From NCBI GenBank assembly GCA_903876765.1, contig CAIRBH010000044.1, forward strand, positions 1-44,483: 44,483 nt of DNA, written 5' to 3'. The notes under the pieces were generated by a model. The model ran no database searches. It worked only from the letters and a program-made list of their open reading frames with translations, and had not been told where the DNA came from. Origin of the DNA: an uncultured Pseudomonadota bacterium. GTDB taxonomy: Bacteria > Pseudomonadota > Gammaproteobacteria > Burkholderiales > Methylophilaceae. The translations under genes and the position numbers were made by a program. Shown here in pieces: positions 3,788-44,483 of the stretch (position 1 is its first letter; every line of letters begins with the position of its first letter).

Positions 3788-4305
3788 AACATTTAATCTT
3801 TTTAGAAATTACACCTAAAACAGGTTCGTCTGCCTCTTACGGCAGCTTTCTGAAAAACTTAAATGTTTTTTTAAATTTTTTTAAATTTTTTATTATTTAT
3901 AAGTTATTTGATACTTTTTATCATTTATATAGCCTGGCATTGAAGGGCTAACAGCCCATGGCATGGCATTAAAAACTGGCTAATTTATGACTTATTTGAG
4001 GGCTAAAACCATGCTGTGGGGATTAAAAAAGATGGTGATACAGGCGCGAAAAAATGGCTAAAGGCGAGCTGAAAATTTAGCCGAAGTGACAAAAAAGGAT
4101 AAAAAAATCCTAGTAAAAAAACATGAAAAAAGATGCTAAAAAACGAATGGAACAACTTTGAAAAAGATTTTTGCGCAAAGTTGATGCGGAAATGTTGGCC
4201 TGAGAAAACACTAAAACTGGTCTTATGCTAGCTTACAAAATAAGCTTAAAAATAGTAAAACCAGCTTATAAAATTGCCCTGTCTATCTATATGACGACTA
4301 GCAAT
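3788..4305 (-). other. tpsB–tpsA intergenic region with structured leader
   Basis: This 518-bp gap holds no convincing gene. Close to the tpsA start, two hairpins are visible in the minus-strand transcript: a 5-bp stem (3830–3834 with 3841–3845, loop 3835–3840) and a 4-bp stem (3813–3816 with 3822–3825). A long A/T tract lies at 3861–3900. Further away are small inverted repeats: 3945–3949 with 3953–3957, 4056–4062 with 4076–4082, and 4096–4100 with 4107–4111. None has a run of T that would make a classic terminator. The length and the structured leader suggest that tpsA may have its own promoter, but I cannot point to convincing −35/−10 boxes. Confidence 0.4.
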
Positions 4306-6042
4306 TTATGGCAAGTTGATACTGGCATTAATCCAATAAAAATTGTCATGGCGCGTGCCGTCAGAATCTGTGCCGTCGGCCTGAGGCTTGGGGTTATCGC
4401 CTATGCGTTTTGACCAAACCAGTGAGATGCTGGAATGCAGTTTTAAGAAGCTAGGCTTCCATTCTAGTGACGCACCATAGCCATTCATATTGAAGCCATT
4501 TTGACCTGTGGCGTTGGGCAGATGAGTCAATTTATTGGTGTTGTTCACATATTCTTTGGCGAGTCCATAGTCATAAAAACCGACTAAGCTAAGGTCTGCT
4601 GGCAGCTCTTTATGTAGCTCTAGATTAACTAATAAGCCATCACTGCCACCGCCCTCACTAGAAGGATATGCGCGAACACCAGTGGCACCGCCGAGGTAAA
4701 ATTTTTGTGAAGAATCTAAATTGCTATCTGCTAACTGACCATTGAATTTAATCACGCTACTGATGGTTTGCGTATAAAACTGCGTGTTGTTGAGGTTCCA
4801 TCTTAAACGGGCAAATCGGCCTTCTACTTCTTGGCTAATTTTGCCCGCTCTAAAGCTGGCAGGCGAATTACCGTAGTCGGCGTAGCCTAGGTCAAGATCA
4901 AGCGAAGCAGATGTTTGCCCAGCAAGCGTCAGGCTATTGCGATGCCCAAGCGAGCTGCCTATCGTGAACAAATCGACTTTATAATCACTTTCTAGGCCAT
5001 TGCTGCTGGTGTTTTTATAATGTTTTATTTCTAGTGCGGCATTGCTGGTGATATTCAAATTTCTGCCGCGTAAACTAGGATAGCTCGCCGCTAAAGATAT
5101 GGTTTGCGCGTTGCCCGCAGGTTTAAGCGACAGCCCAGCACCTTCAATAACGTCATATTTTAATGCGCTGGCGTTGATGCCTAGACTTAATCCTGAGTAG
5201 CCTATAGGACGGTTAAATCCAGCTCTAGCGTAGTCGTTGCCAGTGGTGTGCATATAGGAAAAATCAATGCGATCGCCTATATTGAGCGGGCTAAATAACG
5301 AGGCAGCGGCCAAATAACGCTGACGCCCAGTCGAGAGGAAGCCATAGTTATCAGATGAAATGCTGGCAGCATAAGCCGCCGTGTTGCTAATCTTGACTAG
5401 CGATTCGGCCTGACCTTCTTTATCGCCTGCACGTAATGACTGACTGACCGCAACGCCAGGTAATTCATTGGCAATTAATATTGCACGGTCTAGCGTATCG
5501 AGTTTCAATACTTGATCTGGCGGGTTATTGGCTTCAATAAAACGCTTAATGATCTCTGGATCCACCTGATAAGTAACACCTGCCTCGCCGTCTATCTTAG
5601 CGCCGCCATACTGCGCTTCGACTATCTGCACCTTAACCTCACCCTCGCTAATATCTTGCTTAGGCAAGCTTGCGGTGGCTAAGTAAGCGCGATCTTTGTA
5701 GTACAGACTAATGCTATCAACCGCCAGTTTTAACTCGTCAAAGGTAATTTCTCTATTAAGATAATCTTTTAAGTAAGCTTCTAACTGATTAGCGCTAAAC
5801 AGATGGTTGCCCTCAAACACAAAATGCTTAACGCTGAAGCGAAAACCCTCTTGAGATGGCTTCTCTACTGGCTTTTCTTGCTCTATCGTGGGCGGTGTTC
5901 TAAGCGGCTGTTTTTGATCTAGTATGCGCTCAATTTGGTTGAGTTGCTGCCCAGCATCTGCCGCCCAAATACCTTGGCTATGCCCTAATAATAGCAGCGT
6001 AATCAATGCAGACTTTGGTTTAAAGGAATGATTGGCGAGCAT
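4306..6042 (-). CDS. TpsB-type outer-membrane transporter (ShlB/FhaC/HecB family)
   Basis: The 578-residue protein is the pore that exports the downstream TpsA adhesin across the outer membrane. A signal peptide is visible (hydrophobic residues 12–26, probable cleavage after 'GIWA'). A proline-rich linker follows, then a POTRA domain at about 67–155 ('HFVFEGNHLFSANQLEAYL'), and a long 16-strand-barrel region. The conserved loop-6 motif appears as 'GVRAYPSSEGG' near residues 455–465, a variant of VRGY. Length is normal for the family. One oddity is that the last strand ends in '…INASINLP' rather than the usual terminal aromatic residue recognised by the BAM complex. Start is ATG at 6042, with no strong ribosome-binding site. 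The order tpsB then tpsA on one strand is the classic two-partner arrangement. Confidence 0.9.
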   Translation of the reverse strand: MLANHSFKPKSALITLLLLGHSQGIWAADAGQQLNQIERILDQKQPLRTPPTIEQEKPVEKPSQEGFRFSVKHFVFEGNHLFSANQLEAYLKDYLNREITFDELKLAVDSISLYYKDRAYLATASLPKQDISEGEVKVQIVEAQYGGAKIDGEAGVTYQVDPEIIKRFIEANNPPDQVLKLDTLDRAILIANELPGVAVSQSLRAGDKEGQAESLVKISNTAAYAASISSDNYGFLSTGRQRYLAAASLFSPLNIGDRIDFSYMHTTGNDYARAGFNRPIGYSGLSLGINASALKYDVIEGAGLSLKPAGNAQTISLAASYPSLRGRNLNITSNAALEIKHYKNTSSNGLESDYKVDLFTIGSSLGHRNSLTLAGQTSASLDLDLGYADYGNSPASFRAGKISQEVEGRFARLRWNLNNTQFYTQTISSVIKFNGQLADSNLDSSQKFYLGGATGVRAYPSSEGGGSDGLLVNLELHKELPADLSLVGFYDYGLAKEYVNNTNKLTHLPNATGQNGFNMNGYGASLEWKPSFLKLHSSISLVWSKRIGDNPKPQADGTDSDGTRHDNFYWINASINLP

Positions 6043-18409: not shown

Positions 18410-19144
18410 TTAGCACCAATCTGGGTTGGGCAATGCGCTAAATACTGACTTCAATCCCTCAGCCCAACCTTGCCTAACCTGTAAATAATAAGGGTCGTTC
18501 TCGGTAATTCTTTGCTGGCAATCGGCATGTAAGGTATCTACTCTATATAGCAACAAATCAATAGGCGCTGCCACACTGACGTTACTGCGTATAGTAGAGT
18601 CAAATGAAATCAATAAGCATTTTACCGCATCCATCATTTCTGTATTGTATTTAACCACACGGTCGATAATAGGCTTACCGTACTTGGTTTCACCTATTTG
18701 AAAATAAGGGGTTTCACTACAAGTTTCTATAAAGTTTCCCGCTGCATAGACATTAAACAATCTCGGTTTTTCACCTTTAATTTGCCCGCCGAGCAAAATA
18801 CTGGCATTAAATTCTATGTGATGATTTTTAAGGTATTCGGCATCTCGCTCAAAGGCTGCTCTTAGCTCGGAGCCGACTAAACCTGCCGCTTCAAATAAAC
18901 TATCTACATTATGTAAATGCTTGCTAGCTTTTTTATTGCTTTCTATGGCGGCCTTTAAATGGCCGATGACAGACTGCGTAATCGCTAAATTACCCGCCGT
19001 CATTAAGACGATGACACGGTCATTTTTAACTTCAAACACGTGCATCTTAGGGGAAATGGCAACTTGATCTACCCCAGCGTTGGTGCGCGTATCAGAAGCA
19101 AATACCAAGCCTTGTTTTAACAATAGTCCTACGCAATAAGTCAT
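18410..19144 (-). CDS. Anbu: proteasome-like N-terminal-nucleophile hydrolase
   Basis: The 244-residue protein begins 'MTYCVGLLLKQGLVFASDTRTNAGVDQV', the Anbu/BPH signature. After methionine removal, Thr2 would be the N-terminal nucleophile, with the usual Asp (SDTR) and Lys ('SPKM', about residue 33) of the active site. Anbu is a self-compartmentalising relative of HslV and proteasome beta subunits with an unknown substrate. It shares the strand and neighbourhood with transglutaminase-like, alpha-E and ATP-grasp genes, the established Anbu context. The gap of about 135 bp to the next gene upstream suggests it may also have its own transcript. Confidence 0.9.
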   Translation of the reverse strand: MTYCVGLLLKQGLVFASDTRTNAGVDQVAISPKMHVFEVKNDRVIVLMTAGNLAITQSVIGHLKAAIESNKKASKHLHNVDSLFEAAGLVGSELRAAFERDAEYLKNHHIEFNASILLGGQIKGEKPRLFNVYAAGNFIETCSETPYFQIGETKYGKPIIDRVVKYNTEMMDAVKCLLISFDSTIRSNVSVAAPIDLLLYRVDTLHADCQQRITENDPYYLQVRQGWAEGLKSVFSALPNPDWC

Positions 19145-19224
19145 AACTCACTCTTCTATAATCTAGCCCAAATCATACCATTAGCCATGGCCTAACTTAA
19201 CAGAAATTCTTAATATCAGTTAGT

Positions 19225-19254
19225 GCCTAATGTCTTAGGCATGGCCAAGCTGGC
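19225..19254 (-). other. Two small hairpins between the DUF2721 gene and Anbu gene
   Basis: A perfect 6-bp stem with 4-base loop (19225–19230 with 19235–19240) is followed by a 4-bp stem (19244–19247 with 19251–19254). There is no T run on either strand, so an intrinsic terminator is not supported. An RNA-processing or attenuation element is possible. Confidence 0.35.
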
Positions 19255-19279
19255 TTAATATTGTGCTATCTGGGTGTTT

Positions 19280-19747
19280 CTATCTGGGTAATTCAATCTT
19301 GGCATTTAAATCTTGGCGATGGCGTGTAATCACCTCTTGTGAGGCAAGAATAATCTCTCGCAAAAAACATAATAGGCCAAAAATTAAGGAAAACATGGCG
19401 GTGATAAACGTCATTAACACAAAACCTGATAAGTGAATATTAATAGCAACGCCAATAAATATGGAGGCAATCGCTAAAGATACGCACAATCCAGCAAAGA
19501 TAAACAAGCCTACTGACCAGCGCATCCAAGAAGTTCTGACTGCAATAATATCTAGCTCATCTAAGAACAATTTGCGCTGCTCCAGATTAAATGCATTTAA
19601 GTTTCTGGCTCTATCTATCGCGCGGCCCAGTCGATTAACCAGTACACCAAGAATAGAGCCGATGCCAGTTAATAAAAAAACTGGCGCGACTGCGTCATGA
19701 ATGGCTAGAGACACATCACGGATATCGGAAGGAGAGTTAATGATCAT
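19280..19747 (-). CDS. DUF2721-family membrane protein
   Basis: This 155-residue protein has a hydrophobic N-terminal segment ('VFLLTGIGSILGVLVNRLGR', about 23–42) followed by a basic amphipathic stretch. Two further membrane segments are at about 78–102 and 107–130. The pattern 'APVFLLTGIGSxLxxLxxRLxRxxDRxR' is that of DUF2721, of unknown function. It is placed between Anbu and the transglutaminase gene on the same strand, so it may belong functionally to that cluster. The ATG at 19747 lacks a clear ribosome-binding site. Confidence 0.82.
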   Translation of the reverse strand: MIINSPSDIRDVSLAIHDAVAPVFLLTGIGSILGVLVNRLGRAIDRARNLNAFNLEQRKLFLDELDIIAVRTSWMRWSVGLFIFAGLCVSLAIASIFIGVAINIHLSGFVLMTFITAMFSLIFGLLCFLREIILASQEVITRHRQDLNAKIELPR

Positions 19748-19807
19748 AAAATTCAGCTTAATCTAGATATGGTTTAGGCTAGTCAGCCAGTCACAATAAT
19801 AAAAAAC

Positions 19808-20683
19808 TTACTGCTGTATTTGCTGCATCTGCCGCATCGACTCGGCCTTTTGGGCAAGTGCGGCAATATCAATGCTGCGTTGCTGAGCTGACGCTGTGCC
19901 AGATTGATTAACCAGCACGCTAGTGGCCATGCCCTCTACGCCGCCGCCAGAACGCAAGCCGCTGACTGGGTTTGCGCTGCGATAGTCTAAGCCAGTCGCC
20001 AGTCGCACATGGCCTTCGCCCGCACGGCAACCGTTAGCAACATCAAAACTTTGCCAGCCTAGGTCAGTTAAATAAACGTCTGCCCAAGCGTGCGTTTGCA
20101 TCAAACTGCCGTCGGCGGTAAATAAATAGCCGCTGACATAGCGTGCTGGCAAACCCATGCTTCGGCAGCACGAAATAAAAATATGGGTATGATCTTGGCA
20201 TACCCCTTGGCCAAGCGCATAAGCGTCTATGGCTGAAGTAGTGACTTGCGTAACCCCAGTGAGGTAATGCACACGCAGAAGTAAAGCATGCATCATTGCC
20301 TCTAGCGCCGCCAGCTGGCCTTGCTCTGCTGCTTTAAACTGTGTCGCAAATGTGCGTATGGCCTCGCTACTTTGGGTAAGCGGGGTATCTCTAAGATAAA
20401 TAGCTAAAGGTAAGTTTTGCTGTACCGATGTCACGGCCAAACCTGTTTCAATCTCACCCATGGCCACGATAGTAATTGCTTGGTGCGGGCTATCAATCAC
20501 TAGCGTGTGTGTGCTATTGCCATAAGCATCTGCTGTGGGGTTGAGTGCGCCTAGTACTTTAATATCCCAACGTTTAACCTGCTGACCAAAGCCATTTTGC
20601 GGTGTTAGTCGTAATTGCTGTATGGTGTAATTCACTGGCTCGCTATACACATAGCGAGTGTGATGCTCTATGCTAAGCAGCAT
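19808..20683 (-). CDS. Transglutaminase-like cysteine peptidase of the Anbu cluster
   Basis: The 291-residue protein starts 'MLLSIEHHTRYVYSEPV', the N-terminal strand domain (Bact_transglu_N) typical of this family. The transglutaminase core follows with Cys162 ('GQGVCQDHTHIF'), His198 ('QTHAWADVYL') and Asp214 ('GWQSFDVANG'), a complete triad. Family members may cleave or form isopeptide/peptide bonds. It follows the alpha-E gene with one base between stop and start, so the two are surely co-transcribed. The C-terminal glutamine/methionine-rich tail ('QKAESMRQMQQIQQ') is variable. Confidence 0.9.
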   Translation of the reverse strand: MLLSIEHHTRYVYSEPVNYTIQQLRLTPQNGFGQQVKRWDIKVLGALNPTADAYGNSTHTLVIDSPHQAITIVAMGEIETGLAVTSVQQNLPLAIYLRDTPLTQSSEAIRTFATQFKAAEQGQLAALEAMMHALLLRVHYLTGVTQVTTSAIDAYALGQGVCQDHTHIFISCCRSMGLPARYVSGYLFTADGSLMQTHAWADVYLTDLGWQSFDVANGCRAGEGHVRLATGLDYRSANPVSGLRSGGGVEGMATSVLVNQSGTASAQQRSIDIAALAQKAESMRQMQQIQQ

Positions 20684-20684
20684 A

Positions 20685-21647
20685 TTAACTCGCCACTATG
20701 CTGAAAAAAGTCTTATGTATTTCTGTACCTAGTTTGTTGTTGGCTTGCACAAAGTCTTCTAAAAATTCATGCAGGCCGTGCTGAAAAATACTGCGCATTT
20801 TGCCAAAACGTAATTTAGCGTGTAGCTCCCCAGCCAAGCGCTTACATTCGGTCTGTCTAGCGCCTGACAGCTGCTCTAAAATAAGGGTAATTTCATCAAA
20901 ACAAGCGTGTAATGATCGCGGCATATCACGCCTTAAAACCAGCAACTCCGCCACCCGCCAAGGCTCTATGGTGTCGCTATAAATTTTCTGATAGGCCTGA
21001 AAAGCTGATACCGAGCGCAAAATAGCGCTCCATTCGTAGTAATCGACCGCGCCGCCTATTTCTTCTTGTTCTGGCAGTAATAAGTGATATTTCACATCTA
21101 GCAATCTGGCGGTATTGTCTGCGCGTTCTATAAACGTACCTAAACGCACAAAACTAAAGGCATCATCCCTTAGCATGGTGCCAAAGCACACCCCTCTAAA
21201 TAAATGTGAGCGGGCTTTTACCCAATCGCAAAATTCACGTAAGCCAGTCTTGGCTAAATCTTGATCAATAAATTGGCTAAATTCTAGCCAAAGTGAATTG
21301 ATGTTTTCCCAAGTTTCTGACGTCATGGTTACCCGCACTGCATGGGCATTTTCGCGGGCACTTCGTAAGGAATTATAAATGCTAGAGGGGTTATTGCTAT
21401 CCATGGCTAAATAATGAATCACGCCAGCGGCGGTATATTCATCATCTTCATATTTAAAGTAGTCGCGCTCGTAGGCCTCTACATTGCCAGATATTTCTAG
21501 TGCTGTTACCCATAACGCGGCTTCACTTTCTGCGGCATTGGGCACTAAGGACATGTTATACGTCACATCCAATACTCTTGCCATATTTTCTGCACGCTCT
21601 ATATATCGCGCCATCCAATAAAGATGATCTGCTGTACGACTTAACAT
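20685..21647 (-). CDS. Alpha-E domain protein (COG2307)
   Basis: The protein has 320 residues and is mostly helical, beginning 'MLSRTADHLYWMARYIERAENMARVLD' and repeating the same helical motif near 'SFVRLGTFIERADNTARLLD' (about residue 170), the duplicated signature of the alpha-E domain. The biochemical role is unknown. It is almost always encoded next to the circularly permuted ATP-grasp and transglutaminase genes, as here. It overlaps the upstream ATP-grasp gene by 7 bp. Confidence 0.9.
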   Translation of the reverse strand: MLSRTADHLYWMARYIERAENMARVLDVTYNMSLVPNAAESEAALWVTALEISGNVEAYERDYFKYEDDEYTAAGVIHYLAMDSNNPSSIYNSLRSARENAHAVRVTMTSETWENINSLWLEFSQFIDQDLAKTGLREFCDWVKARSHLFRGVCFGTMLRDDAFSFVRLGTFIERADNTARLLDVKYHLLLPEQEEIGGAVDYYEWSAILRSVSAFQAYQKIYSDTIEPWRVAELLVLRRDMPRSLHACFDEITLILEQLSGARQTECKRLAGELHAKLRFGKMRSIFQHGLHEFLEDFVQANNKLGTEIHKTFFSIVAS

Positions 21648-23140
21648 GTGCTCACCTCTTGTGTTGCGTCTGTTGGGCTGGCACTATGCATTGCCTCGCC
21701 CGCTGCTTCTTGCAGCACCCAAGTATCTTTAGTGCCACCCCCTTGCGATGAATTCACCACTAGCGAACCTTCTTTCATCGCCACTCTACACAATGCCCCT
21801 GGCACTAAGCTGACGGTTTTTCCGGATAAAACAAAAGGTCGCAAATCCACATGCCTAGGGGCAATACCCTGCTCCACTAGGGTAGGGCAGGTGGAAAGCG
21901 CCAATGTGGGTTGGGCAATATAATTAGCAGGGTTTGCAATAATCCGCTCTTTAAAGTCTGCTAACTCTTTTTTAGACGCAGCAGGGCCTACCAACATGCC
22001 ATAACCGCCTGAGCCTTGCACTTCTTTAACCACCAGCTCTGCTAAATGGGCCAAGGTATAAGCTAAATCATCTGCTTTACTTAATTCATAAGTCGGTACG
22101 TTCTCTAACAGAGGCTCTTCACCTAAATAAAATTTGATCATCGCTGGCACATGAATGTAAGTAGCCTTGTCATCGGCCACCCCAGTGCCCACCGCATTGG
22201 CGAGGGTCACGCCGCCATCACGATACACCGATAGCAAGCCTGGTACGCCTAGCATAGAGTCGGCATTAAACACCAACGGATCTAAGTAATCATCATCTAT
22301 GCGGCGGTAAATCACATCCACCCGTTGCGGCCCTTCAGTAGTGCGCATATACACCGCATTGTTGCGCACAAATAAATCAGATCCCTCTACCAGCTCTACC
22401 CCCATTTGCTGCGCCAAAAATGCATGTTCAAAATAGGCACTGTTATACGCCCCTGGCGTTAATACCACGACGGTAGGCTCATGCACCCCAGCTTGTGCTA
22501 CCGCACGTAAATTTTTCAGCAGTACTTGTGGGTAATGGTCAACTGGCGCAATAGAGTAGCGGCGGAATAATTCGGGGAAAAGTCGCATCATCATTTTGCG
22601 ATCTTCCAGCATATATGAGACGCCAGAAGGGGTGCGTAAATTGTCTTCTAACACATAAAATTGTGATTCGCTGGTACGCACTAAATCTATACCAGCAATA
22701 TGTGCGTAAATTTGATTAGGCACATCCACGCCAAACATCTCAGGTCGGTATTGACTATTGCCCAGCACACTTGCTGGCACTAGCCCCGCTTGAATGATGT
22801 CTTGCTTATGATAAATATCGTGCAAAAACATATTGAGTGCACGAACTCGTTGTATCGCCCCAGCAGATAATTTTGCCCATTCTTTAGCCGCCAATATCCG
22901 CGGCACAATATCAAACGGTATCAGACGTTCAGCCCCGTCATCATCGCCATACACATTAAAGGTGATCCCCACCCGACGAAACAGCAATTCTGCCTCTTGA
23001 CGTTTACTATTGAGCTGATGATGTGGCACGCCTTTAAGCCAATGCTTATAAGCGGCATAGATTTCACGCACGCCAGCCTCGTCGCCACTGGCGCTATTGA
23101 TTTGCATTTCATCAAAAAATGCTATGGCGGAATTTTTCAT
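21641..23140 (-). CDS. Circularly permuted ATP-grasp protein (COG2308)
   Basis: A protein of 499 residues from ATG 23140 ('MKNSAIAFFDEM'). The frame extends to ATG 23185, but the added 15 residues are not typical. Motifs of the family are 'MFGVDVPNQIYAHIAGIDLVR', 'YVLEDNLRTPSGVSYM', 'DVIYRRIDDDYLDP' and the C-terminal 'VDLRPFVLSGK…NSSQGGG'. ATP-grasp enzymes ligate carboxylates to amines, so a peptide- or amide-forming ligase is predicted; the substrate is unknown. First gene of the ATP-grasp–alpha-E–transglutaminase overlap chain. A 258-bp gap with strong inverted repeats separates it from yicC. Confidence 0.9.
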   Translation of the reverse strand: MKNSAIAFFDEMQINSASGDEAGVREIYAAYKHWLKGVPHHQLNSKRQEAELLFRRVGITFNVYGDDDGAERLIPFDIVPRILAAKEWAKLSAGAIQRVRALNMFLHDIYHKQDIIQAGLVPASVLGNSQYRPEMFGVDVPNQIYAHIAGIDLVRTSESQFYVLEDNLRTPSGVSYMLEDRKMMMRLFPELFRRYSIAPVDHYPQVLLKNLRAVAQAGVHEPTVVVLTPGAYNSAYFEHAFLAQQMGVELVEGSDLFVRNNAVYMRTTEGPQRVDVIYRRIDDDYLDPLVFNADSMLGVPGLLSVYRDGGVTLANAVGTGVADDKATYIHVPAMIKFYLGEEPLLENVPTYELSKADDLAYTLAHLAELVVKEVQGSGGYGMLVGPAASKKELADFKERIIANPANYIAQPTLALSTCPTLVEQGIAPRHVDLRPFVLSGKTVSLVPGALCRVAMKEGSLVVNSSQGGGTKDTWVLQEAAGEAMHSASPTDATQEVSTC

Positions 23141-23248
23141 AATCTTATTCTTTCTTATATATATGAATGAATAAGCAAAACTCATACCAAACTATTTATT
23201 ATAAAAATCAATAAGTTACATCATAAAAAAATCGGCGCGGCGCTTTAA

Positions 23249-36047: not shown

Positions 36048-37733
36048 ATGCAATTCAAATTTTCAAAATTCGCCACTGTGCTTATCACAAGCGGCATCAT
36101 TTCATTACCATTGGCAGCGCATGCTAATGACAGCTCTGAGCTTGAAGAGCTCCGTGCTTTAGTACAGCAACTAGATCAACAAGTAAAAGTCTTGGCACGT
36201 AAAGGTGAAATTTCAGAGGAAGAAACCGCTGCGGCTAAGAAAACAAACCCAGTAGTAAAAGCCAGTGAAAAAGGTTTTGGCCTAGAGTCTGCTGATGGCA
36301 AAAGCGTGATTAAATTTCGCGGTTTATTACAAGCGGATGGCCGTAACTTTTCTAGCGGTAAAAACTTAACTTCAAAAGCAGCCTCTGGTGCAAGTACTGC
36401 TGGGTATCTTGATAATACAGAAAGTGCAAAAGATACCGCTTTATTAAGACGCATTAGACCAACGCTTGAAGGTACCGTATATGGTAAATATGATTTCCGC
36501 TTTACGCCAGAATTTGGTGATGGTAAATCTCAAGTGGTTGATGCGTATATTGACGCACGACTTGACCCTGCATTTAAAATCCGTGCGGGTAAATATAAAC
36601 CGTTTGTAGGTTTAGAGCGCTTACAAAGCGGTTCAGATATTAAATTCTTAGAGCGTAGTTATGTGAGCAATATTTTACCTAACCGCGATGTCGGTATTTC
36701 TGCTTTCGGCGATGTATTAGATGGTAAATTTAGCTATGCCGTAGGGGTGCATAATGGCGTGACCGATGGTGGTGACAACGTCACCTCTAGTGATGCAAAC
36801 AGTGATAAAGATTACGCTGCGCGTATTTTTGCAACCCCATTTAAAGACGCCGATAACGCATTGGCGGGCTTAGGTGTGGGGATTGCTGGTACTTACGGCA
36901 AAGTGACAGGTACTACTAAAGATACGATTAACGGCTCTACAACGGAATTAACCTCTGGCTATAAAACAGAAGGTCAACAAACGTTCTTTAAATACGTTGA
37001 TAGCTCAGTATTACGCTCAGGTATTGGTGAAGGCGTTAGTTCTACAGGCGGTCCTGGAGCCTCATGGTTGGTGCATGCAGATGGCAAGCGTTCTCGCTTT
37101 GCACCACAAGCCAGTTACTATTACGGCCCATTTGGTTTAATCACAGAATACGTGCGTGAATCACAAGAAGTCAGTGTAGGTGCACAAAATTTGAAAAAGA
37201 CCACACTGCATAACAATGCATGGCAAGTGGCAGGAACTTGGTTAATTACCGGTGAAGACGCGTCATTTAAAGGGGTAAAACCTAAAAATAACTTCGACTT
37301 TGACAAACGCACTTGGGGTGCTTGGGAAATTGTAGGGCGCTACAGCGAACTAAATATAGACAATGACGCGTTTACCTTCGGTAATCTTGGCGCAGGAACA
37401 GGGGTAACAGCGACTGCGTTCAATACACTAGCCTACAGCCCTGCTGGTACTGCATCACTGCAAACAATAAACCATTATTTATATGCTGATCCAAAGGCTT
37501 CAGCCAAGTCAGCTAAAACTTGGACGGTGGGTGTCAATTGGTACCTAAATCCAGAGGTTAAATTAGCACTAAATTATGAACAAACTAAATTTGATGGCGG
37601 AGGCGGCGACCTAACAAGTAGCACTGGCGCAGGTACCACCAATGCAACTTTCACTGACTTAATTAGAAATTCAACAGTACGTGACCGTGAAGATGAAAGA
37701 GCCATCTTGGCGCGCTTCCAAGTTGCTTTCTAA
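36048..37733 (+). CDS. Outer-membrane porin (OprP/OprO-like)
   Basis: A 561-residue protein with a signal peptide (cleavage after 'AAHA'), an N-terminal coiled coil ('ELEELRALVQQLDQQVKVLARKG', trimer-forming in related porins) and a beta-barrel of alternating strands ending in a terminal phenylalanine ('RFQVAF') for BAM-dependent insertion. 'GLLQADGRNF' and 'RIRPTLEGTVYGKYDFRF' match the phosphate-selective porin family (PF07396). The position between DUF2292 and a sulfate-binding protein suggests an oxyanion such as sulfate or a sulfonate as solute, by inference only. Very strong ribosome-binding site (AAAGGAG). Confidence 0.88.
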   Translation: MQFKFSKFATVLITSGIISLPLAAHANDSSELEELRALVQQLDQQVKVLARKGEISEEETAAAKKTNPVVKASEKGFGLESADGKSVIKFRGLLQADGRNFSSGKNLTSKAASGASTAGYLDNTESAKDTALLRRIRPTLEGTVYGKYDFRFTPEFGDGKSQVVDAYIDARLDPAFKIRAGKYKPFVGLERLQSGSDIKFLERSYVSNILPNRDVGISAFGDVLDGKFSYAVGVHNGVTDGGDNVTSSDANSDKDYAARIFATPFKDADNALAGLGVGIAGTYGKVTGTTKDTINGSTTELTSGYKTEGQQTFFKYVDSSVLRSGIGEGVSSTGGPGASWLVHADGKRSRFAPQASYYYGPFGLITEYVRESQEVSVGAQNLKKTTLHNNAWQVAGTWLITGEDASFKGVKPKNNFDFDKRTWGAWEIVGRYSELNIDNDAFTFGNLGAGTGVTATAFNTLAYSPAGTASLQTINHYLYADPKASAKSAKTWTVGVNWYLNPEVKLALNYEQTKFDGGGGDLTSSTGAGTTNATFTDLIRNSTVRDREDERAILARFQVAF

Positions 37734-37814: not shown

Positions 37815-38825
37815 ATGAAAAAATCACTACTCACCATTGCCTTACTATCGGCCATTTATGGCATCGCTGCACCGTTGACGGCACTTGCTAAAGACGTTAA
37901 TTTACTGAACGTATCTTACGACCCAACGCGAGAGTTGTACCAAGATTTCAATAAAGCATTCGCTGCATTTTGGAAAACAAAAACGGGCGATAACGTTATT
38001 GTTAAAACCTCACACGGCGGTTCAGGCAAACAAGCCCGTGCCATTATTGATGGCTTAGACGCTGACGTTGCCACGCTGGCCTTGGCCTACGACGTAGACC
38101 AGCTGCAAGAAAAAGCCAAACTAATTCCTAAAGATTGGCAAACGCGTTTACAACACAACAGCTCACCTTACACATCAACTATTGTATTTTTGGTGCGTAA
38201 AGGCAATCCAAAAGGCATTAAAGATTGGGATGATTTAACCAAATCAGGCGTATCTGTGATTACGCCAAACCCTAAAACATCAGGTGGCGCTCGCTGGAAT
38301 TACCTAGCAGCTTGGGCCTATGCACAGAAACATGATGGCGGCGATGAGACAAAAACCAAAGAATTTATCGGTAAATTGTTTAAAAACGTACCCGTGTTAG
38401 ATACAGGGGCGCGTGGCTCTACCACTACCTTTGTTGAACGTGGTATTGGTGACGTATTACTGGCTTGGGAAAACGAAGCATTTTTAGCTCAAAAAGAATT
38501 AGGGGTAGGCAAGTTTGAAATCGTTGTGCCTTCACTTTCTATCTTGGCTGAACCCCCAGTGACCGTGGTCGATAAATTTGCTAAAAAGCATGGTAATGAA
38601 GCGGTTGCTAAAGCTTATTTAGAGTATTTATATACTGAAGAAGGCCAAGAGATTGCAGCTAAAAACTACTATCGCCCGACCTTAGCCTCTGTGGCTAAGA
38701 AATACGATGCTCAATTTCCAAAAGTGAACTTGGTAAAAATTGATGAGGAATTTGGTGGTTGGCAAGCTGCTCAGAAAAAACACTTTTCTGATGGTGGTAC
38801 GTTTGATCAGATCTACCAAAAGTAA
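37815..38825 (+). CDS. sbp: Periplasmic sulfate-binding protein
   Basis: A 336-residue protein with a signal peptide ('ALA|KDV'). Conserved parts of the sulfate/thiosulfate-binding family are '[20 protein letters not shown]', '[20 protein letters not shown]', '[18 protein letters not shown]' and 'YYRPT'. Sbp/CysP proteins deliver sulfate to the CysTWA ABC importer. No permease or ATPase gene is in the window, so the importer must be elsewhere. Confidence 0.93.
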
Positions 38826-38908: not shown

Positions 38909-39253
38909 ATGAGTTCAGTATTAATTGTTGGTGGTGACCGCATTGATGGCATCAAGCAAGTACTGTTTGATTACGGTGTTAATCAAATCCATCATTGGCC
39001 AGGTCGCAAAGCGGGCGACAGCAACAAAGTGATTCCGCAAGATACCAAAGCCATCGTCTTGGTGACTAATTGGATTAGTCACGCCTTTACCCATAAAGTG
39101 AAAAAGACTGCTACTAAACGTGGCATCAAGGTGATTTACACCCCCAATGGCGCGATGGCATTGCACAATAGATTGCAGAATGTTGTCTCGAATTTTTCTC
39201 TGGAGAGCGATTGTGCAAACACTCAAGATAGCTACTATGCATTACTCCACTAA
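38909..39253 (+). CDS. DUF2325-family protein
   Basis: A 114-residue protein whose pattern 'VLIVGGDRIDGIKQVLFDYGVNQIHHWPGRKAGD' and 'VLVTNWISHAFTHKVKKTATKRGIKVIYTPNG' fits DUF2325, a small Rossmann-like family. The family has no established function that I know. It lies between sbp and cysK on the same strand. Start ATG 38909 with AAGG upstream. Confidence 0.82.
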   Translation: MSSVLIVGGDRIDGIKQVLFDYGVNQIHHWPGRKAGDSNKVIPQDTKAIVLVTNWISHAFTHKVKKTATKRGIKVIYTPNGAMALHNRLQNVVSNFSLESDCANTQDSYYALLH

Positions 39254-39293: not shown

Positions 39294-39380
39294 AAATGTA
39301 GGTGATAACATTGCAAATTTAGCGCTCCCTACAATTAATCGGGGCTTATGAATTTACTGAGTTCATCACACGGAGGAATT

Positions 39381-40361
39381 ATGTCAAGTTGGTTTGAAGA
39401 CAACGCACAATCTATTGGCAATACGCCTTTAGTTAGATTAAATCGCATTACTGATGGCGCTGGTGCAACAGTGCTCGCAAAAATTGAAGGCCGCAACCCG
39501 GCTTATTCGGTCAAATGTCGCATTGGTGCGGCCATGATTTGGGATGCCGAAGAACGTGGCTTGCTGGGTCCAGGCAAAGAACTGGTAGAGCCCACTAGCG
39601 GTAATACTGGCATAGCGCTGGCTTTTGTGGCGGCGGCGCGCGGCATTCCACTAACACTGACCATGCCAGAAACCATGAGCATAGAGCGCCGAAAATTATT
39701 AGTCGCTTATGGCGCAAAGCTCGTGTTAACCGAAGGTGCAAAAGGCATGAGTGGCGCCATTGCAAAAGCAGAAGAAATTGCCGCCTCAGACCCTAGTCGC
39801 TATGTATTACTACAGCAGTTCAAGAACCCAGCTAACCCTGCTATTCATGAAAAAACGACTGGCCCCGAAATTTGGCATGACACTGATGGAAAGGTTGATA
39901 TATTTGTTGCAGGGGTAGGTACTGGCGGCACTATCACTGGGGTTTCTCGTTACATTAAGAACACTCAAGGCAAAGCGATTATTAGCGTAGCAGTTGAGCC
40001 CGCCGCCAGCCCAGTGCTAAGCCAATATCGTGCAGGTGAGGCGCTTAAACCAGCACCGCATAAAATACAGGGCATAGGTGCAGGATTTGTGCCTAGCATA
40101 CTAGACCTGACGCTGGTCGATGACATTGCCCAAGTCAGTAATGAAGAAGCGGTGCTTTATGCCAAACGCCTAGCGCTTGAAGAGGGCATACTGTGTGGCA
40201 TTTCTTGTGGGGCGGCTGCCGCTGTTGCGGTGCGCTACGCCAAGCGTGCTGAAAACACTGGTAAAACCATCGTGGTCATACTCCCAGATTCTGGCGAGCG
40301 TTATTTGAGTTCGATTTTATTTGAAGGTTTATTTGATGCACAAGGCATTGCTATTGCCTAA
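39381..40361 (+). CDS. cysK: Cysteine synthase A (O-acetylserine sulfhydrylase)
   Basis: CysK makes cysteine from O-acetylserine and sulfide. The 326-residue protein (ATG 39381, chosen because GGAGG lies 6 bases before it; the frame opens at 39348) has the PLP lysine K45 in '[11 protein letters not shown]', '[13 protein letters not shown]', '[13 protein letters not shown]' and the PLP phosphate loop '[10 protein letters not shown]'. The sequence is CysK- rather than CysM-like. It is the last gene of the plus-strand sulfur run and ends at a strong terminator. Confidence 0.96.
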
Positions 40362-40439
40362 ATTGCTGCATCTTCATAAAAAAAGTGTTGGTTGCCTAAC
40401 ACTCTAAACTAGGCGATGTTCTCTCCTTGTTGTGTTTTG

Positions 40440-40472
40440 CCGGTAAGCCAAAATCTGGCTTACCGGTTTTTT
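40440..40472 (+). terminator. Rho-independent terminator of cysK
   Basis: A perfect 10-bp GC-rich stem (40440–40449 with 40457–40466, 7-base loop) is followed by six T's (40467–40472). A weaker inverted repeat lies at 40384–40403. Together they separate the convergent cysK and desulfurase genes. Confidence 0.9.
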
Positions 40473-40483
40473 AACTTCAAGTT

Positions 40484-42304
40484 TTAGTGAGTCAAGCCAG
40501 CTGGCACTTTATGCGATGTTAAATGTAACAATACATTAATCATGGCATCGACTTCTGCTCTGGTATTGTAAAAAGCCAGCGATGGTCTAACGGTAGTTTC
40601 AAGACCAAAACGACGCAAGATGGGCTGCGCGCAATGATGTCCAGAACGCACCGCTATGCCCTCTTTATTTAATGCGGCACCCACCTCTTCGCTAGTAAAT
40701 CCAGCCAAGGTAAATGACAACACACTGGCCTTGTCGGCAGCCGTTCCTACTAAATGTAAGCCTGGTACTTTTTGCATAACAGCGGTCGCGTAAACCAATA
40801 ACTCATGCTCATAACGGGCAATGTTATCTATGCCTATGCGCTCAACATAGACCAATGCTGCACCTAAACCGACCGCATCGGCTATATTGCCTGTGCCCGC
40901 CTCAAACTTGGCCGGGGCCTCGTGGTATATGGTTTTATCAAAGATCACATCTTGTATCATATTGCCGCCACCTTGCCATGCGGGCATGGCATTGAGCAGC
41001 TCGGACTTACCATACAATGCCCCTATACCCGTTGGCGCAAATACTTTATGTCCTGAGAACACAAAAAAGTCAGGGTCTAAAGCCTGAATATCAGTTCGCA
41101 TGTGCGATACTGATTGTGCGCCATCCAACAAGACTTTTGCGCCTATGCTATGCGCCATTTGTATCATCTGTTTGGCAGGGGTAACCGTGCCTAGTGCATT
41201 AGAAACTTGCGTAAACGACACTAATTTAACGCGGGGAGTCAGTAGTTTTTGATATTCATCCAACCGCACTTGGCCGCTATTATCCACGGGGGCAACTTTT
41301 AACTTAGCGCCTGTTTCTAGGCATAACTGCTGCCATGGCACAATGTTGGCATGGTGCTCTAGGTGAGTAATTACAATCTCATCGCCTGCACTCAGGTTCT
41401 TTTTACCCCATGACTTAGCGACTAAATTAATCGCTTCGGTGGTGCCACGTACAAAGACAATGTTATCCACTGAAGGCGCATTAATAAAGCGACGTACGGT
41501 TTCCCTAGCATCTTCATAGGCATCGGTTGCTCTCGCGGCAAGCTCATGGGCAGCACGATGGATATTTGAGTTTTCGTGTTGATAAAAATAGCTCAGCCTA
41601 TCAATAACCGCTTGCGGTTTTTGTGTGGTCGCCGCGTTGTCAAACCAAATCAATGGCCTTCCATTGACTAGCTCGCTCAAAATTGGAAAGTCCTTACGCA
41701 CCAAGTGAACATCAAATGCTGGATGCGCTGAGACTGGCAATTCAATGGCCGTATTTGAAGGTAATCCTTGCAAAAAGTAGTAAGGACTAGCCTCTGCTGG
41801 AATGCCGCTAGCCGCGCTGGTAATGCCAGCTTGACTGCTATAGCCAGCACCGCCTAACAAGTTTGTTAGTTGGCTGTCATACGGATTATCTATACCCACT
41901 AGCAACTGAGTAATATCAATTTCAGCTGGCACAGACTGACTATGTTGCAAATATAGCGCTTGTAAACTTGCAACATCAGGCTTACTGGTAACACTTGGCA
42001 ACTGAGCTGGTGTAGCACTTCGTGGTGCAGGGGTGCTGGGTAATACTGAATCTCCCGCAACATGTGATAAAGATGCCGTTGTAGGCACTTCAGCTTGTTT
42101 TGCCAAGGGAGAACCGGCAGGAAAGCCTTCAGCATACAGTTCATTGACGATGCGACTTAGCTCTGCAACATCTAAATTTCCCGTTTCACTCGCTTGCCTA
42201 CCTAATGCAAGCGCTGAAGCCATGCGTGGATGATCTCCAGGCAAAGAAGCGAGGATCGCCTCTGGCTCGAAAGACGACAAGTCGTTTAGATTATTTATAC
42301 TCAT
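40484..42304 (-). CDS. SufS-like cysteine desulfurase with long N-terminal encapsulin-cargo extension
   Basis: A 606-residue protein. The catalytic part (about 203–606) is a group II/SufS-type PLP enzyme: 'YFDNAATTQKPQAV'-like start ('WFDNAATTQKP', 220–230), 'THLEHHANIVPW', 'LLDGAQSVSHM', PLP lysine K420 in 'FSGHKVFAPTGIG' and the active cysteine C558 in 'RSGHHCAQP'. It removes sulfur from cysteine as an enzyme persulfide. In front are about 200 residues of proline-, serine- and alanine-rich sequence with short conserved-looking segments ('ELSRIVNELYAEGFPA', 'VASLQALYLQH', 'SPYYFLQGLP'). A normal SufS lacks this. In family 2A encapsulins such an extension is the cargo-loading region. It overlaps the shell gene by 14 bp. 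Confidence 0.93.
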   Translation of the reverse strand: MSINNLNDLSSFEPEAILASLPGDHPRMASALALGRQASETGNLDVAELSRIVNELYAEGFPAGSPLAKQAEVPTTASLSHVAGDSVLPSTPAPRSATPAQLPSVTSKPDVASLQALYLQHSQSVPAEIDITQLLVGIDNPYDSQLTNLLGGAGYSSQAGITSAASGIPAEASPYYFLQGLPSNTAIELPVSAHPAFDVHLVRKDFPILSELVNGRPLIWFDNAATTQKPQAVIDRLSYFYQHENSNIHRAAHELAARATDAYEDARETVRRFINAPSVDNIVFVRGTTEAINLVAKSWGKKNLSAGDEIVITHLEHHANIVPWQQLCLETGAKLKVAPVDNSGQVRLDEYQKLLTPRVKLVSFTQVSNALGTVTPAKQMIQMAHSIGAKVLLDGAQSVSHMRTDIQALDPDFFVFSGHKVFAPTGIGALYGKSELLNAMPAWQGGGNMIQDVIFDKTIYHEAPAKFEAGTGNIADAVGLGAALVYVERIGIDNIARYEHELLVYATAVMQKVPGLHLVGTAADKASVLSFTLAGFTSEEVGAALNKEGIAVRSGHHCAQPILRRFGLETTVRPSLAFYNTRAEVDAMINVLLHLTSHKVPAGLTH

Positions 42305-43208
42305 AGTAGTTGCCTACATCAACATTTTCTAGCACGGCAATCGCATCATCCGTTAAAACAGCGAGTGAGCAATACAATGAAACTAGATACGAGGCGATTG
42401 CCTTGTGGTTAATGCCCATAAAACGTACTGATAAACCCATACTTTGTTGGCCAGGTAAATTTGGTTGATAGAGCCCTACCACTCCTTGGCGACTTTCGCC
42501 GGTGCGAAGTAATAAAATATTCGTTTTACTTTTGGTCACTTTAAGCTTGTCACAAGGAATAATAGGTACGCCACGCCATGTAATGAACTGTGAGCCAAAT
42601 AAGGCTACCGTTGGAGGCGGCACGCCGCGGCGAGTACACTCGCGGCCAAAAGCAGCTATGGCTTGCGGATGCGCTAAAAAGAATGCTGGCTCTTTCCAAA
42701 CTTTGGTCAGCAATTCATCAAAATCATCTGGGGTTGGTGCGCCCGTGCGAGATTTTACTTTTTGTGTAGCAGCAATATTATGCAATAAACCATATTCTTT
42801 ATTGTTAATCAGCTCACTCTCTTGACGCTCTTTAACGGTTTCAATCGTTAAGCGTAATTGCTCTTTAATTTGGTTGTGTGGGCTACTGTACAGATCTGAA
42901 ACGCGGGTATGCACATCGACCACAGTGTTCACTGCATTAAGTACATACTCACGACCCCATTCCTCATAATCGACAAAAGTTGCAGGCAAATCACGCTCAT
43001 CTTTGGCAGAGCAATCAACCTCAATGGCACTCGGATCTTTAGCCTTATTGACGCGATAAATACCCGCTTCTATTGGCACCCATTGCAGTAAATGTACCAG
43101 CCAGCGCGGCGTAATGGTACTGAGCATAGGTACGGTTTTAGTGGCATTAGAAAGCGTCCGTGCGGCGACGTCACTCAATGCGGTTTGATGATATTGCTGA
43201 TCTGTCAT
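42291..43208 (-). CDS. Family 2A encapsulin shell protein (SrpI-like)
   Basis: A 305-residue protein with the SrpI-type sequence: 'LSTITPRWLVHLLQWVPIEAG' (about 29–50), 'DERDLPATFVDYEEWGREY', an E-loop-like region, and the C-terminal 'GLYQPNLPGQQSMGLSVRFMGIN'. These match the HK97-fold shell proteins once annotated as major membrane protein I. There is no cyclic-nucleotide-binding domain, which argues for family 2A over 2B. Members assemble into closed shells that enclose a cysteine desulfurase; that gene is directly downstream and overlaps. A strong AGGAGA ribosome-binding site precedes ATG 43208. It is not a phage capsid gene: no other phage genes are nearby. Confidence 0.92.
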   Translation of the reverse strand: MTDQQYHQTALSDVAARTLSNATKTVPMLSTITPRWLVHLLQWVPIEAGIYRVNKAKDPSAIEVDCSAKDERDLPATFVDYEEWGREYVLNAVNTVVDVHTRVSDLYSSPHNQIKEQLRLTIETVKERQESELINNKEYGLLHNIAATQKVKSRTGAPTPDDFDELLTKVWKEPAFFLAHPQAIAAFGRECTRRGVPPPTVALFGSQFITWRGVPIIPCDKLKVTKSKTNILLLRTGESRQGVVGLYQPNLPGQQSMGLSVRFMGINHKAIASYLVSLYCSLAVLTDDAIAVLENVDVGNYYEYK

Positions 43209-43241: not shown

Positions 43242-43271
43242 TTAAGTAATGCCTATTTAAGTAATACCTAT
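43242..43271. repeat. 15-bp tandem duplication between cysE and the shell gene
   Basis: TTAAGTAATxCCTAT occurs at 43242–43256 and 43257–43271 with one difference. The second copy reaches the cysE stop codon. It probably arose by slippage. Confidence 0.7.
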
Positions 43272-44287
43272 TAATGGGATTGGTGTACTTCGTGAAATTC
43301 ATTGCTGTTATCTAAATTACTACTATGGTGTGAGGCCAGATCTATAGGAGCGGCCAAGCTATTTGCCTGTGTTATATTGCCGCCTTCTGGCACGCTGCGT
43401 GTAAGCCAAACATTACCTCCGATGGATGAACCTCGACCAATCGTAATTCTGCCGAGCACTGTTGCACCGGCATAGATCACCACGTTATCTTCTACTATTG
43501 GATGGCGTGCGTTGCCTTTAAGTAGGTTGCCATCTTGATCGGTTGGGAAGCGTTTAGCGCCTAGCGTCACGGCTTGATAAATGCGCACGTGCTTGCCAAT
43601 AATCGCGGTCTCACCAATCACAACGCCCGTGCCATGATCGATAAAAAAACTTTCACCAATTTGTGCGCCAGGGTGAATATCAATCGCCGTTGCTGAATGT
43701 GCTATTTCTGAAATAATGCGGGCAATTAGTGGTAACCCCAAGTTGTATAACGCATGGGCTAAGCGGTGATAAATCATGGCTTGCATGCCTGGGTAACAAA
43801 CCAGTACTTCATCTACGCAGCGGGCTGCAGGATCTCCTTCATACGCTGCTTTAATGTCAGTATCCAAAATGTCACGCACCGCTGGAAGTTGACGGGCAAA
43901 TTTTCTAACAATTTCTGTAGGCGTTGTATTTGATTGCAAGCTCTCTTGGCCTTGCATGTCTGCTTCAAAGGTGAGTTCTAGCTTTACTTGAGAAATTAAC
44001 TCGGTCAGTGCAACATCAAGTGTATGCCCAACAAAATAATCTATTCCCTCGCTTTTTAAATCGGGCAAACCTAATCGATTAGGAAATAGCGCCGCAGCCA
44101 AGCCATCGATGACAGATTGCAGTGCTTTTCTTGATGGCAATTTAGGAGGTTTATTGCGCCGATTTCTATGTTCTAGTGATGTAAGGCGCAAGTCCCTAAG
44201 CTGCATCACAATTTGACTAATTCCTAAATCGTTAGAGGATGCATTTTCAATGCTACTTGAGCTATAAATTTTTTGATTTGATTTCAT
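43271..44287 (-). CDS. cysE: Serine O-acetyltransferase (EpsC/CysE type)
   Basis: A 338-residue enzyme making O-acetylserine from serine and acetyl-CoA, the substrate of CysK. An N-terminal helical domain (about 1–190, longer than E. coli CysE) precedes the left-handed beta-helix built of hexapeptide repeats, with 'IDIHPGAQIGESFFIDHGTG' (D203 and H218) and 'VTLGAKRFP'. The C-terminus ends in '…EFHEVHQSH' and lacks the terminal isoleucine that lets E. coli CysE bind CysK. The shell and desulfurase genes follow on the same strand, giving the order cysE–shell–desulfurase. A terminator-like structure sits upstream. Whether the ATG at 44287 is exact is uncertain, as it has no ribosome-binding site. 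Confidence 0.92.
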   Translation of the reverse strand: MKSNQKIYSSSSIENASSNDLGISQIVMQLRDLRLTSLEHRNRRNKPPKLPSRKALQSVIDGLAAALFPNRLGLPDLKSEGIDYFVGHTLDVALTELISQVKLELTFEADMQGQESLQSNTTPTEIVRKFARQLPAVRDILDTDIKAAYEGDPAARCVDEVLVCYPGMQAMIYHRLAHALYNLGLPLIARIISEIAHSATAIDIHPGAQIGESFFIDHGTGVVIGETAIIGKHVRIYQAVTLGAKRFPTDQDGNLLKGNARHPIVEDNVVIYAGATVLGRITIGRGSSIGGNVWLTRSVPEGGNITQANSLAAPIDLASHHSSNLDNSNEFHEVHQSH

Positions 44288-44331
44288 AAATTTTTTAAAA
44301 GTTAGTTATAGATATCTACGTTGCAAAATGC

Positions 44332-44398
44332 AAAAAGCCAGCGGTCTTTCGACGCACTGGCTTCCGGTTGTCCGGTCAGCGATGGCTAACTACGAGAA
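44332..44398 (-). other. Two-hairpin element with terminator-like stem upstream of cysE
   Basis: On the minus strand a short stem (44372–44375 with 44364–44367) is followed by a larger one (44353–44361 with 44337–44343, two-base bulge) and then T5 (A's at 44332–44336). It lies 45 bp before the cysE ATG. It could be the terminator of a gene beyond the window, or a riboswitch/attenuator controlling cysE and the encapsulin operon. No known riboswitch class could be matched by eye. Confidence 0.55.
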
Positions 44399-44483
44399 TA
44401 TGGTATTGCTAGGTATTAATGTGTTTAAAAACAGCCTTAAATTTATTTGTATACAAGCAATATACACCAGTCTAACAACTTAA

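Follow-up and report, generated by a model that had tools for sequence, protein, structure and literature searches.

A conserved leader element with an intrinsic terminator precedes a family 2A encapsulin operon and other sulfur genes of methylotrophic bacteria

The family 2A encapsulin of Acinetobacter baumannii, which has the same type of cargo as the locus described here, reportedly stores elemental sulfur. For SrpI of Synechococcus elongatus and its encapsulated cysteine desulfurase (CyD), the available parts of PMC8049743 report two cargo N-terminal motifs, LARLANEFFS and AASPYYFLDG, shell residues near cargo density (F262 and Y273) and conserved pore residues (G194 and P196); because S. 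elongatus knockouts described there had no growth defect, genetics has not settled what the family 2A nanocompartment does. Here we describe an encapsulin operon and its leader element in a window of 44,483 nucleotides (nt), the whole stretch of DNA analysed, which is the entire contig C44 in an assembly of a methanol-eating bacterium that is 1.91 Mb in size and 90% complete. An earlier note, made from the sequence of the window, had recognised the shell and desulfurase genes; the serine acetyltransferase gene upstream of them and the leader element were absent from it. We think it likely that serine acetyltransferase, shell and CyD form a three-gene sulfur-starvation operon under the control of an RNA attenuator common to a sulfur regulon.

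A leader element shared by sulfur genes

The operon and its leader comprise the following features.

44459..44464, minus strand: TATATT preceded by TG, candidate -10 box of the operon promoter (sequence; weak evidence)
44329..44380, minus strand: conserved leader element, 50 nt, P1 hairpin and P2 terminator (covariance model, covariation)
44364-44375, minus strand: P1 hairpin of the element, CCGG-ACAA-CCGG, with a stem of 4 base pairs (bp)
44337-44361, minus strand: P2 intrinsic terminator stem of the element, at fixed spacing after P1
44332-44336, minus strand: T-run of the leader terminator
43271..44287, minus strand: serine acetyltransferase (EpsC/CysE-type), first gene of the operon, 338 amino acids (aa) (NF041874, TIGR01172)
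42291..43208, minus strand: srpI-like family 2A encapsulin shell, 305 aa (PF19307, NF041162, match to SrpI 6x8m)
40484..42304, minus strand: CyD, 606 aa, with a SufS-type catalytic part (NF041166, TIGR01979, PF00266)

Comparison of leaders across genera revealed a conserved block, GCTGACCRG-N4-CYGGAAGCCAG, followed by a loop, a complementary arm and a T-run. A first model (R1) was made by aligning 44 copies, counting pairs and building a covariance model with which whole genomes were searched, and a second model was made from 54 copies; elements L083, L068 and L095 (the last two with a long loop) and the near-duplicate L098 were left out of alignments A1 and A4. The window element scored 68.1 bits against R1 (E 6.9e-13), and the next best match in the genome 20.3 bits. 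Among 53 distinct sequences, 95.5% of cells were paired and two-sided changes occurred in 11 of the 15 pairs, a level of pairing reached by none of 500 shuffles, while slid versions were 19-50% paired. Both P1 and P2 are backed by two-sided changes, and P2 with its T-run was present in the 54 aligned copies, all of which have the same spacing between the P1 dyad and the terminator.

An alternative pairing of bases 1-21, 2-20 and 3-19 is possible, which extends P1 and competes with P2. In the 53 sequences, pair 3-19 is UA in 46, CG in three, UG in three and unpaired in one, and the terminator pair 19-52 is AU in 47, GC in four and GU in two. Base 19 varies in step with both of its partners, a pattern that fits a switch, though the changes are few.

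The element occurs in Methylophilaceae and in methane-oxidising gammaproteobacteria. We collected 123 distinct copies (114 by sequence pattern plus 4 plus 5, with identical 100-nt stretches counted once; the pattern missed L243, L248, L249 and L250, which were read separately, and L072, and L259 was omitted as a repeat of L184). The first downstream gene was sought by tblastn within 500 nt, using fixed query proteins (shell, CyD, serine acetyltransferase, cysK, DUF2325, sulfate-binding protein, porin, cysJ, sigma-54 activator, TodX, YeeE and CysA), so that a small unrelated gene between the element and its target would go unseen. It was serine acetyltransferase in 50 copies, cysK in 42, the shell in nine, a sigma-54 activator in nine, cysJ in six and a TodX-type porin in four, with two contig ends and one transposase making up the remainder, although these shares are biased because many copies came via loci fetched by their shell gene. 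Of the 120 copies with a recognisable first gene, 107 thus have a direct sulfur link (serine acetyltransferase, cysK, cysJ or shell). By its extrapolated start, the first matched gene mostly lies 0-200 nt, and at most 349 nt, beyond the element.

In the scans of the window's genome, its relatives, 39 shell-bearing genomes, the genomes around Methylobacter and those of the class and the order, every match of at least 40 bits stood before one of these six gene kinds, except at the two contig ends and in the transposase case. Among relatives of the window, the element was found at this threshold in 29 of 101 genomes, comprising 28 of the 32 that are encapsulin-positive versus one of the 69 that are negative. 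In that single negative genome (G034, locus L127, positions 1-482), the element and a divergent sulfate-binding gene are kept and a transposase-like fragment lies where the operon is expected; no shell was found in G034, which is a fragmented assembly. The second model, applied to 151 genomes around Methylobacter, found the element (at least 40 bits) in 49, and an encapsulin was present in 71 of the 151 (70 over the cut-off). In this set, from one methanotroph family, the element was thus present at this score in 46 of 71 encapsulin-positive genomes versus three of 80 negative ones, these three carrying it before cysK (G536 and G648) or cysJ (G641). The second model was also run on 369 genomes drawn from the class and 399 from the order. 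In a phylum-wide draw of 398 genomes, only the window and a Methylobacillus relative (G060) exceeded 41 bits; a 40.8-bit match in G300 and weaker ones resemble terminators.

Copies are also found away from the encapsulin. In 39 genomes, all chosen for carrying the shell, extra copies stand before cysJ, the sigma-54 activator or another cysK, and in Methylophilaceae copies also precede the TodX-type porin. The ATPase domain of the activator begins near its N-terminus, and the place of one plasmid relative is labelled aliphatic sulfonate transporter. In two Methylomonas genomes (L073, L108), the element occurs twice in one operon, once ahead of cysK and a second time ahead of the shell. One methanotroph chromosome (G573, loci L225 and L214) carries two equal-scoring copies each of the element and the shell, which suggests a duplicated sulfur operon. 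In L258 (positions 1501-2260, genome G1260), the element stands before the opening 40-odd codons of serine acetyltransferase and the opening 20-odd of the shell, both broken off, apparently by an operon deletion that spared the leader; this locus, with only remnants of the two genes, is counted among the 50 serine acetyltransferase copies. At L199 the element (2550-2601, minus strand) precedes a TodX-type porin and then two short membrane proteins that by sequence resemble YeeE-type sulfur transporters, an arrangement that suggests a role in sulfur uptake for the porin.

A TTGACA/TATAAT-like promoter lies no more than 60 nt 5′ of the element in 57 of 75 gammaproteobacterial copies, compared with a mean of 4.1 and a maximum of 11 in 100 rounds of shuffling, and in 53 of these 57 the -10 box ends 9-19 nt before the element. 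A good promoter and a good terminator within about 60 nt of each other make most sense if readthrough is regulated. In seven of the nine activator copies, a GG-N10-GC sigma-54-type promoter is located 72-76 nt upstream. The TATATT of the window is also found 5′ in several Methylophilaceae leaders and may, at a guess, belong to the operon promoter.

Several other identities were considered for the element and its weaker matches. A known RNA family was rejected: no Rfam 15 match fell over the element in the window (at gathering score or at E up to 5) or in 14 other element-bearing loci (E up to 1), and two weak Rfam matches, in L121 and L256, lie outside it. As to a leader peptide, no shared short open reading frame (ORF) was seen. 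Near the element, and leaving the P2 stem aside, start codons lie most often at -2 (35 of 114 copies) and next at -4 (14 of 114), and some short ORF is present in 36 of the 39 longer Methylophilaceae leaders; by eye, these leaders have no common peptide beyond a string read from the promoter-like GTGTATAT. An extra 5′ helix, GUUAGC-N4-GCUGAC, was treated as lineage-specific because no more than 19 of the 37 Methylophilaceae copies can form at least five of its six pairs. Matches of 30-41 bits in other proteobacteria, like the Methylomonas set L194-L198, are terminator-like without the two-arm 5′ core, and L154 starts with GCTGACCGG and lacks the second arm; none of these were counted. The 40-bit line misses some copies, and most weak matches among the window's relatives were not read individually; true copies below it include L199 and L252 (33 bits each, with the core) and L072 (32 bits, with a degraded core). 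As far as we searched, in Rfam 15 and in a literature that left most subscription papers and all preprints outside its scope, the leader is undescribed.

The encapsulin shell, its cargo and their neighbourhood

Both genes of the earlier note lie where it had placed them, on the minus strand, and the profile search puts the SrpI-type shell above the family 2A cut-off (NF041162, 537.4 bits against 380). The shell matches SrpI (6x8m) over nearly its full length (phmmer, 514.5 bits) and 8t6r, which we take to be the A. baumannii family 2A encapsulin, at 484.8 bits. The family 2B model is passed too (429.5 against 400 bits), yet with a lower score than 2A and in two stretches, the best of which covers model positions 210-449 of 450; the cyclic-nucleotide-binding domain that is the hallmark of 2B is absent from the 305-aa protein, whose sole Pfam match is SrpI-like PF19307 (361.7 bits). 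The sequence match to the solved SrpI suggests an HK97 fold, but the AlphaFold2 model was poor (predicted local distance difference test, pLDDT, 48.3 with 19 sequences). With a one-residue offset taken from the SrpI alignment, and with chain and published numbering taken as equal, F262, Y273, G194 and P196 of SrpI correspond to F263, Y274, G195 and P197, which are invariant in 19 aligned shells including that of the window. Two divergent shell-like genes elsewhere (G535:C2:1276993-1277877 and G589:C13:5539-6420) score 274.5 and 258.8 bits against the family 2A model, under the cut-off of 380.

The desulfurase had been described as carrying about 200 extra N-terminal residues, disordered-looking, rich in Pro, Ser and Ala and with conserved-looking islands, and all of this holds for CyD. 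The protein scores 878.4 bits against NF041166, the family 2A encapsulin cargo cysteine desulfurase (cut-off 800), 546.2 bits against TIGR01979 (cut-off 475.1) and 473.9 bits against PF00266; its best PDB match is 8kg1 (619.8 bits), and it has both the lysine segment SGHK and the cysteine segment SGHHC. Its N-terminus is organised as follows.

41717..42304, minus strand: CyD N-terminal targeting domain, residues 1-196, mostly low-confidence, Pro/Ser/Ala-rich (composition; AlphaFold2 pLDDT)
42119..42172, minus strand: island 1, residues 45-62, holding LSRIVNELYA (alignment of 75 sequences)
41855..41887, minus strand: island 2, residues 140-150, NPYDSQLTNLL (same alignment)
41765..41788, minus strand: island 3, residues 173-180, SPYYFLQG (same alignment)

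Pro, Ser and Ala make up 37% of these 196 residues versus 21% of the catalytic part. In the AlphaFold2 model, residues 69-175 and 178-190 have a pLDDT below 50, helices 26-41 and 46-59 reach about 60-69, and the catalytic part is mostly confident. The alignment (75 sequences including the window; L071 and L111, with unclear starts, omitted) is most conserved at D45 (91%), L49 (89%), N54 (97%) and P62 (95%) of island 1, at P141 (92%) and L146 (84%) of island 2 and at 173-178 of island 3, where Y176 and F177 are found in 100% and L178 in 95%. Strict regular-expression counts are lower than the alignment suggests (island 1, 21 strict and 48 loose; aromatic plus YFL, 65; island 2, 31; n = 75). Window LSRIVNELYA shares four of ten letters with the first published motif and window EASPYYFLQG eight of ten with the second, and island 2 stands as a third conserved island beside the two motifs given in the accessible text of PMC8049743.

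The shell stop and CyD start share exactly the 14 bp that had been noted (42291-42304), an overlap that is identical in 70 of the 79 loci in which both genes are readable, the window included, and that probably couples translation of the two. Among 80 loci, which were the best 80 of more than 590 shell relatives and are therefore close relatives, CyD lies 3′ of the shell in 78 and serine acetyltransferase directly 5′ of it in 65; in some loci, chiefly of methanotrophs, a cysK gene oriented like the operon comes just before serine acetyltransferase. The window's serine acetyltransferase exceeds the EpsC cut-off (NF041874, 164.4 against 150 bits) and is under that of cysE (TIGR01172, 172.1 against 210.65). 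Profile matches identify the neighbours of the operon as sulfur genes.

39348..40361, plus strand: cysK, cysteine synthase A, convergent neighbour (TIGR01139, 455 against 351 bits)
40439..40467, plus strand: terminator-like hairpin between cysK and the CyD operon (12-pair stem and T tail)
38909..39253, plus strand: DUF2325 protein (PF10087)
37815..38825, plus strand: sulfate-binding protein of an ABC transporter (NF008022, 527.8 against 288 bits)
36048..37733, plus strand: PF07396 (O/P-type) porin, head of the sulfur cluster

A DUF2325 gene is kept near the encapsulin operon or the sulfate-binding gene in many Methylophilaceae loci.

By its sequence, the nanocompartment system is a further member of the known family 2A. 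The betaproteobacterial host proposed earlier agrees with the nearest named relatives, three Methylotenera records with 95-96% shell identity, by which the host is Methylotenera-like. The prediction of a sulfur-handling compartment in this betaproteobacterium is supported, because the 2A cut-offs are passed, the SGHK and SGHHC segments and the N-terminal motifs are present, and the neighbours are sulfur genes. The shell is the single family 2A match within this assembly. On contig C38, two further desulfurase-like genes, below the SufS cut-off, adjoin one another, and a separate cysE is above its cut-off; the window's CyD and serine acetyltransferase consequently look like additional, dedicated copies.

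Elsewhere in the window, a gene run at 18410-23185 (minus strand) resembles in sequence the genes for the Anbu proteasome-like peptidase and for neighbours of transglutaminase-like, alpha-E and circularly permuted ATP-grasp type, and an exoprotein similar to filamentous haemagglutinin, cut off by the contig end, has with a TpsB-like transporter (2-6042, minus strand) the appearance of a two-partner secretion pair.

Proposed mechanism and alternatives

We propose that RNA polymerase starts upstream of the leader and would be halted by default at the P2 terminator. During sulfur shortage, the RNA would be kept in its other shape, in which bases 1-3 extend P1 by pairing with bases 19-21, which P2 needs, or else a factor would be bound to the leader RNA; either state should allow the operon to be read through. 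By comparison with solved relatives, 60 shell subunits would then enclose CyD by way of its disordered N-terminus, and cysteine would enter the shell, its sulfur being kept inside or handed on, while serine acetyltransferase would supply new cysteine synthesis. More tentatively, and with the odds somewhat against it, the leader may be a new and very small riboswitch class that senses a metabolite of sulfur assimilation, such as cysteine, O-acetylserine or a compound derived from sulfide, and controls an entire regulon: cysteine synthesis, sulfite reduction, the sigma-54 activator, a putative set for sulfur uptake and the sulfur-holding nanocompartment.

A number of observations weigh against attenuation of a common sulfur regulon. 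Promoter-like sequence precedes four of 39 Methylophilaceae copies, compared with 3.6 in shuffles, so that the promoter is unclear in the window's own group, and no element of at least 40 bits was found in the stretch examined of 35 of the 80 family 2A loci, Nitrosomonas included. The ties of the sigma-54 activator and the TodX-type porin to sulfur are only inferred, and none of the genes beside the activator in L262 is recognisable as a sulfur gene. Few changes support pair 3-19, which L048 and L256 break. The extended-P1 state is 4-5 kcal/mol less stable and leaves a shortened terminator stem, and for these reasons may not alone abolish termination. Finally, the covariation of P1 would arise equally in a palindromic protein-binding DNA site.

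Concerning the compartment itself, the encapsulated CyD might mainly supply sulfur for Fe-S clusters or thio-cofactors, or keep the breakdown of cysteine in check, instead of serving storage; we regard such a role as unlikely but deserving of some weight. Its SufS-type catalytic part speaks for this reading, and these possibilities are raised in the portions of PMC8049743 and PMC8346489 that were available; against this, storage is stated for this cargo class in the accessible portion of PMC12407261, and the two desulfurase-like genes on C38 could do the housekeeping.

As to the leader, its 5′ part could be a DNA operator, with the dyad CCGG-N4-CCGG recognised by a sulfur-responsive transcription factor and the hairpin acting as an ordinary terminator or roadblock. 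Proteobacterial sulfur regulons are usually controlled by proteins, such as CysB, Cbl and SfnR, and the dyad-symmetric changes suit an operator as well as they suit a hairpin. We nevertheless consider an operator improbable, given that all 54 aligned copies keep the same distance between dyad and terminator stem, that base 3 varies with base 19, and that the element lies just 3′ of promoter-like sequence in those 57 gammaproteobacterial copies. G-U wobbles at pairs 7-16 (once), 19-52 (twice) and 20-51 (three times) also speak for RNA, although only 7-16 is inside the dyad. It is quite improbable, too, that the element forms the 3′ terminus of a small RNA that is encoded beside sulfur genes and acts in trans: with a promoter about 60 nt away, the terminator would yield a discrete short RNA, but the occurrence of the element before six gene kinds, close to the first matched gene, and twice in one operon in the two Methylomonas genomes (rows L172, L190, L108 and L179) suits control in cis. 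That a phage capsid has been mistaken for a shell can be dismissed despite the HK97 fold common to phage capsids (PMC8346489, in the part available), since the shell passes the 2A equivalog cut-off within a conserved sulfur context and adjoins its cargo, and no phage gene was recognised by eye among the ORFs of the window, in which no phage profile search was made.

That the compartment, cysK, serine acetyltransferase and cysJ share this leader suggests that the shell is handled by these methylotrophs as a component of cysteine and sulfite assimilation. The shared leader also offers a simple reporter for finding the signal. Were it a riboswitch, it would to our knowledge be the first cis-acting RNA known for this gene set, and would give the strains of methanol and methane biotechnology a compact regulator.

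Comparison with described systems

The window operon resembles SrpI/CyD of S. elongatus PCC 7942 (PMC8049743; 6x8m) in its shell, adjacent cargo, disordered N-terminus with two motifs and sulfur-gene setting, as far as the available text describes them. Unlike that system, it is chromosomal, begins with serine acetyltransferase and has an RNA leader element, no such leader being mentioned in the available parts of PMC8049743. For the leader, the nearest published idea that we found is the metXZ element of betaproteobacteria (PMC4239095, seen in part), which is likewise a conserved leader RNA before sulfur amino-acid genes, occurs also in Methylophilales and has been interpreted in terms of a terminator and antiterminator. 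The two differ in shape and targets: metXZ has six conserved regions, a proposed pseudoknot and a terminator that is not conserved in sequence, and precedes metX and metZ, whereas the leader described here is 50 nt long, has a terminator stem that is itself conserved, and precedes cysteine-synthesis, sulfite-reductase and encapsulin genes. The first matched gene in the 120 copies was never metX or metZ, although these were outside the query set, so that the statement extends only to the six other kinds. A precedent for a small aptamer merged with a terminator is provided by the HMP-PP riboswitch (thiS motif), which is named for other genes in the part of PMC6478431 that was available.

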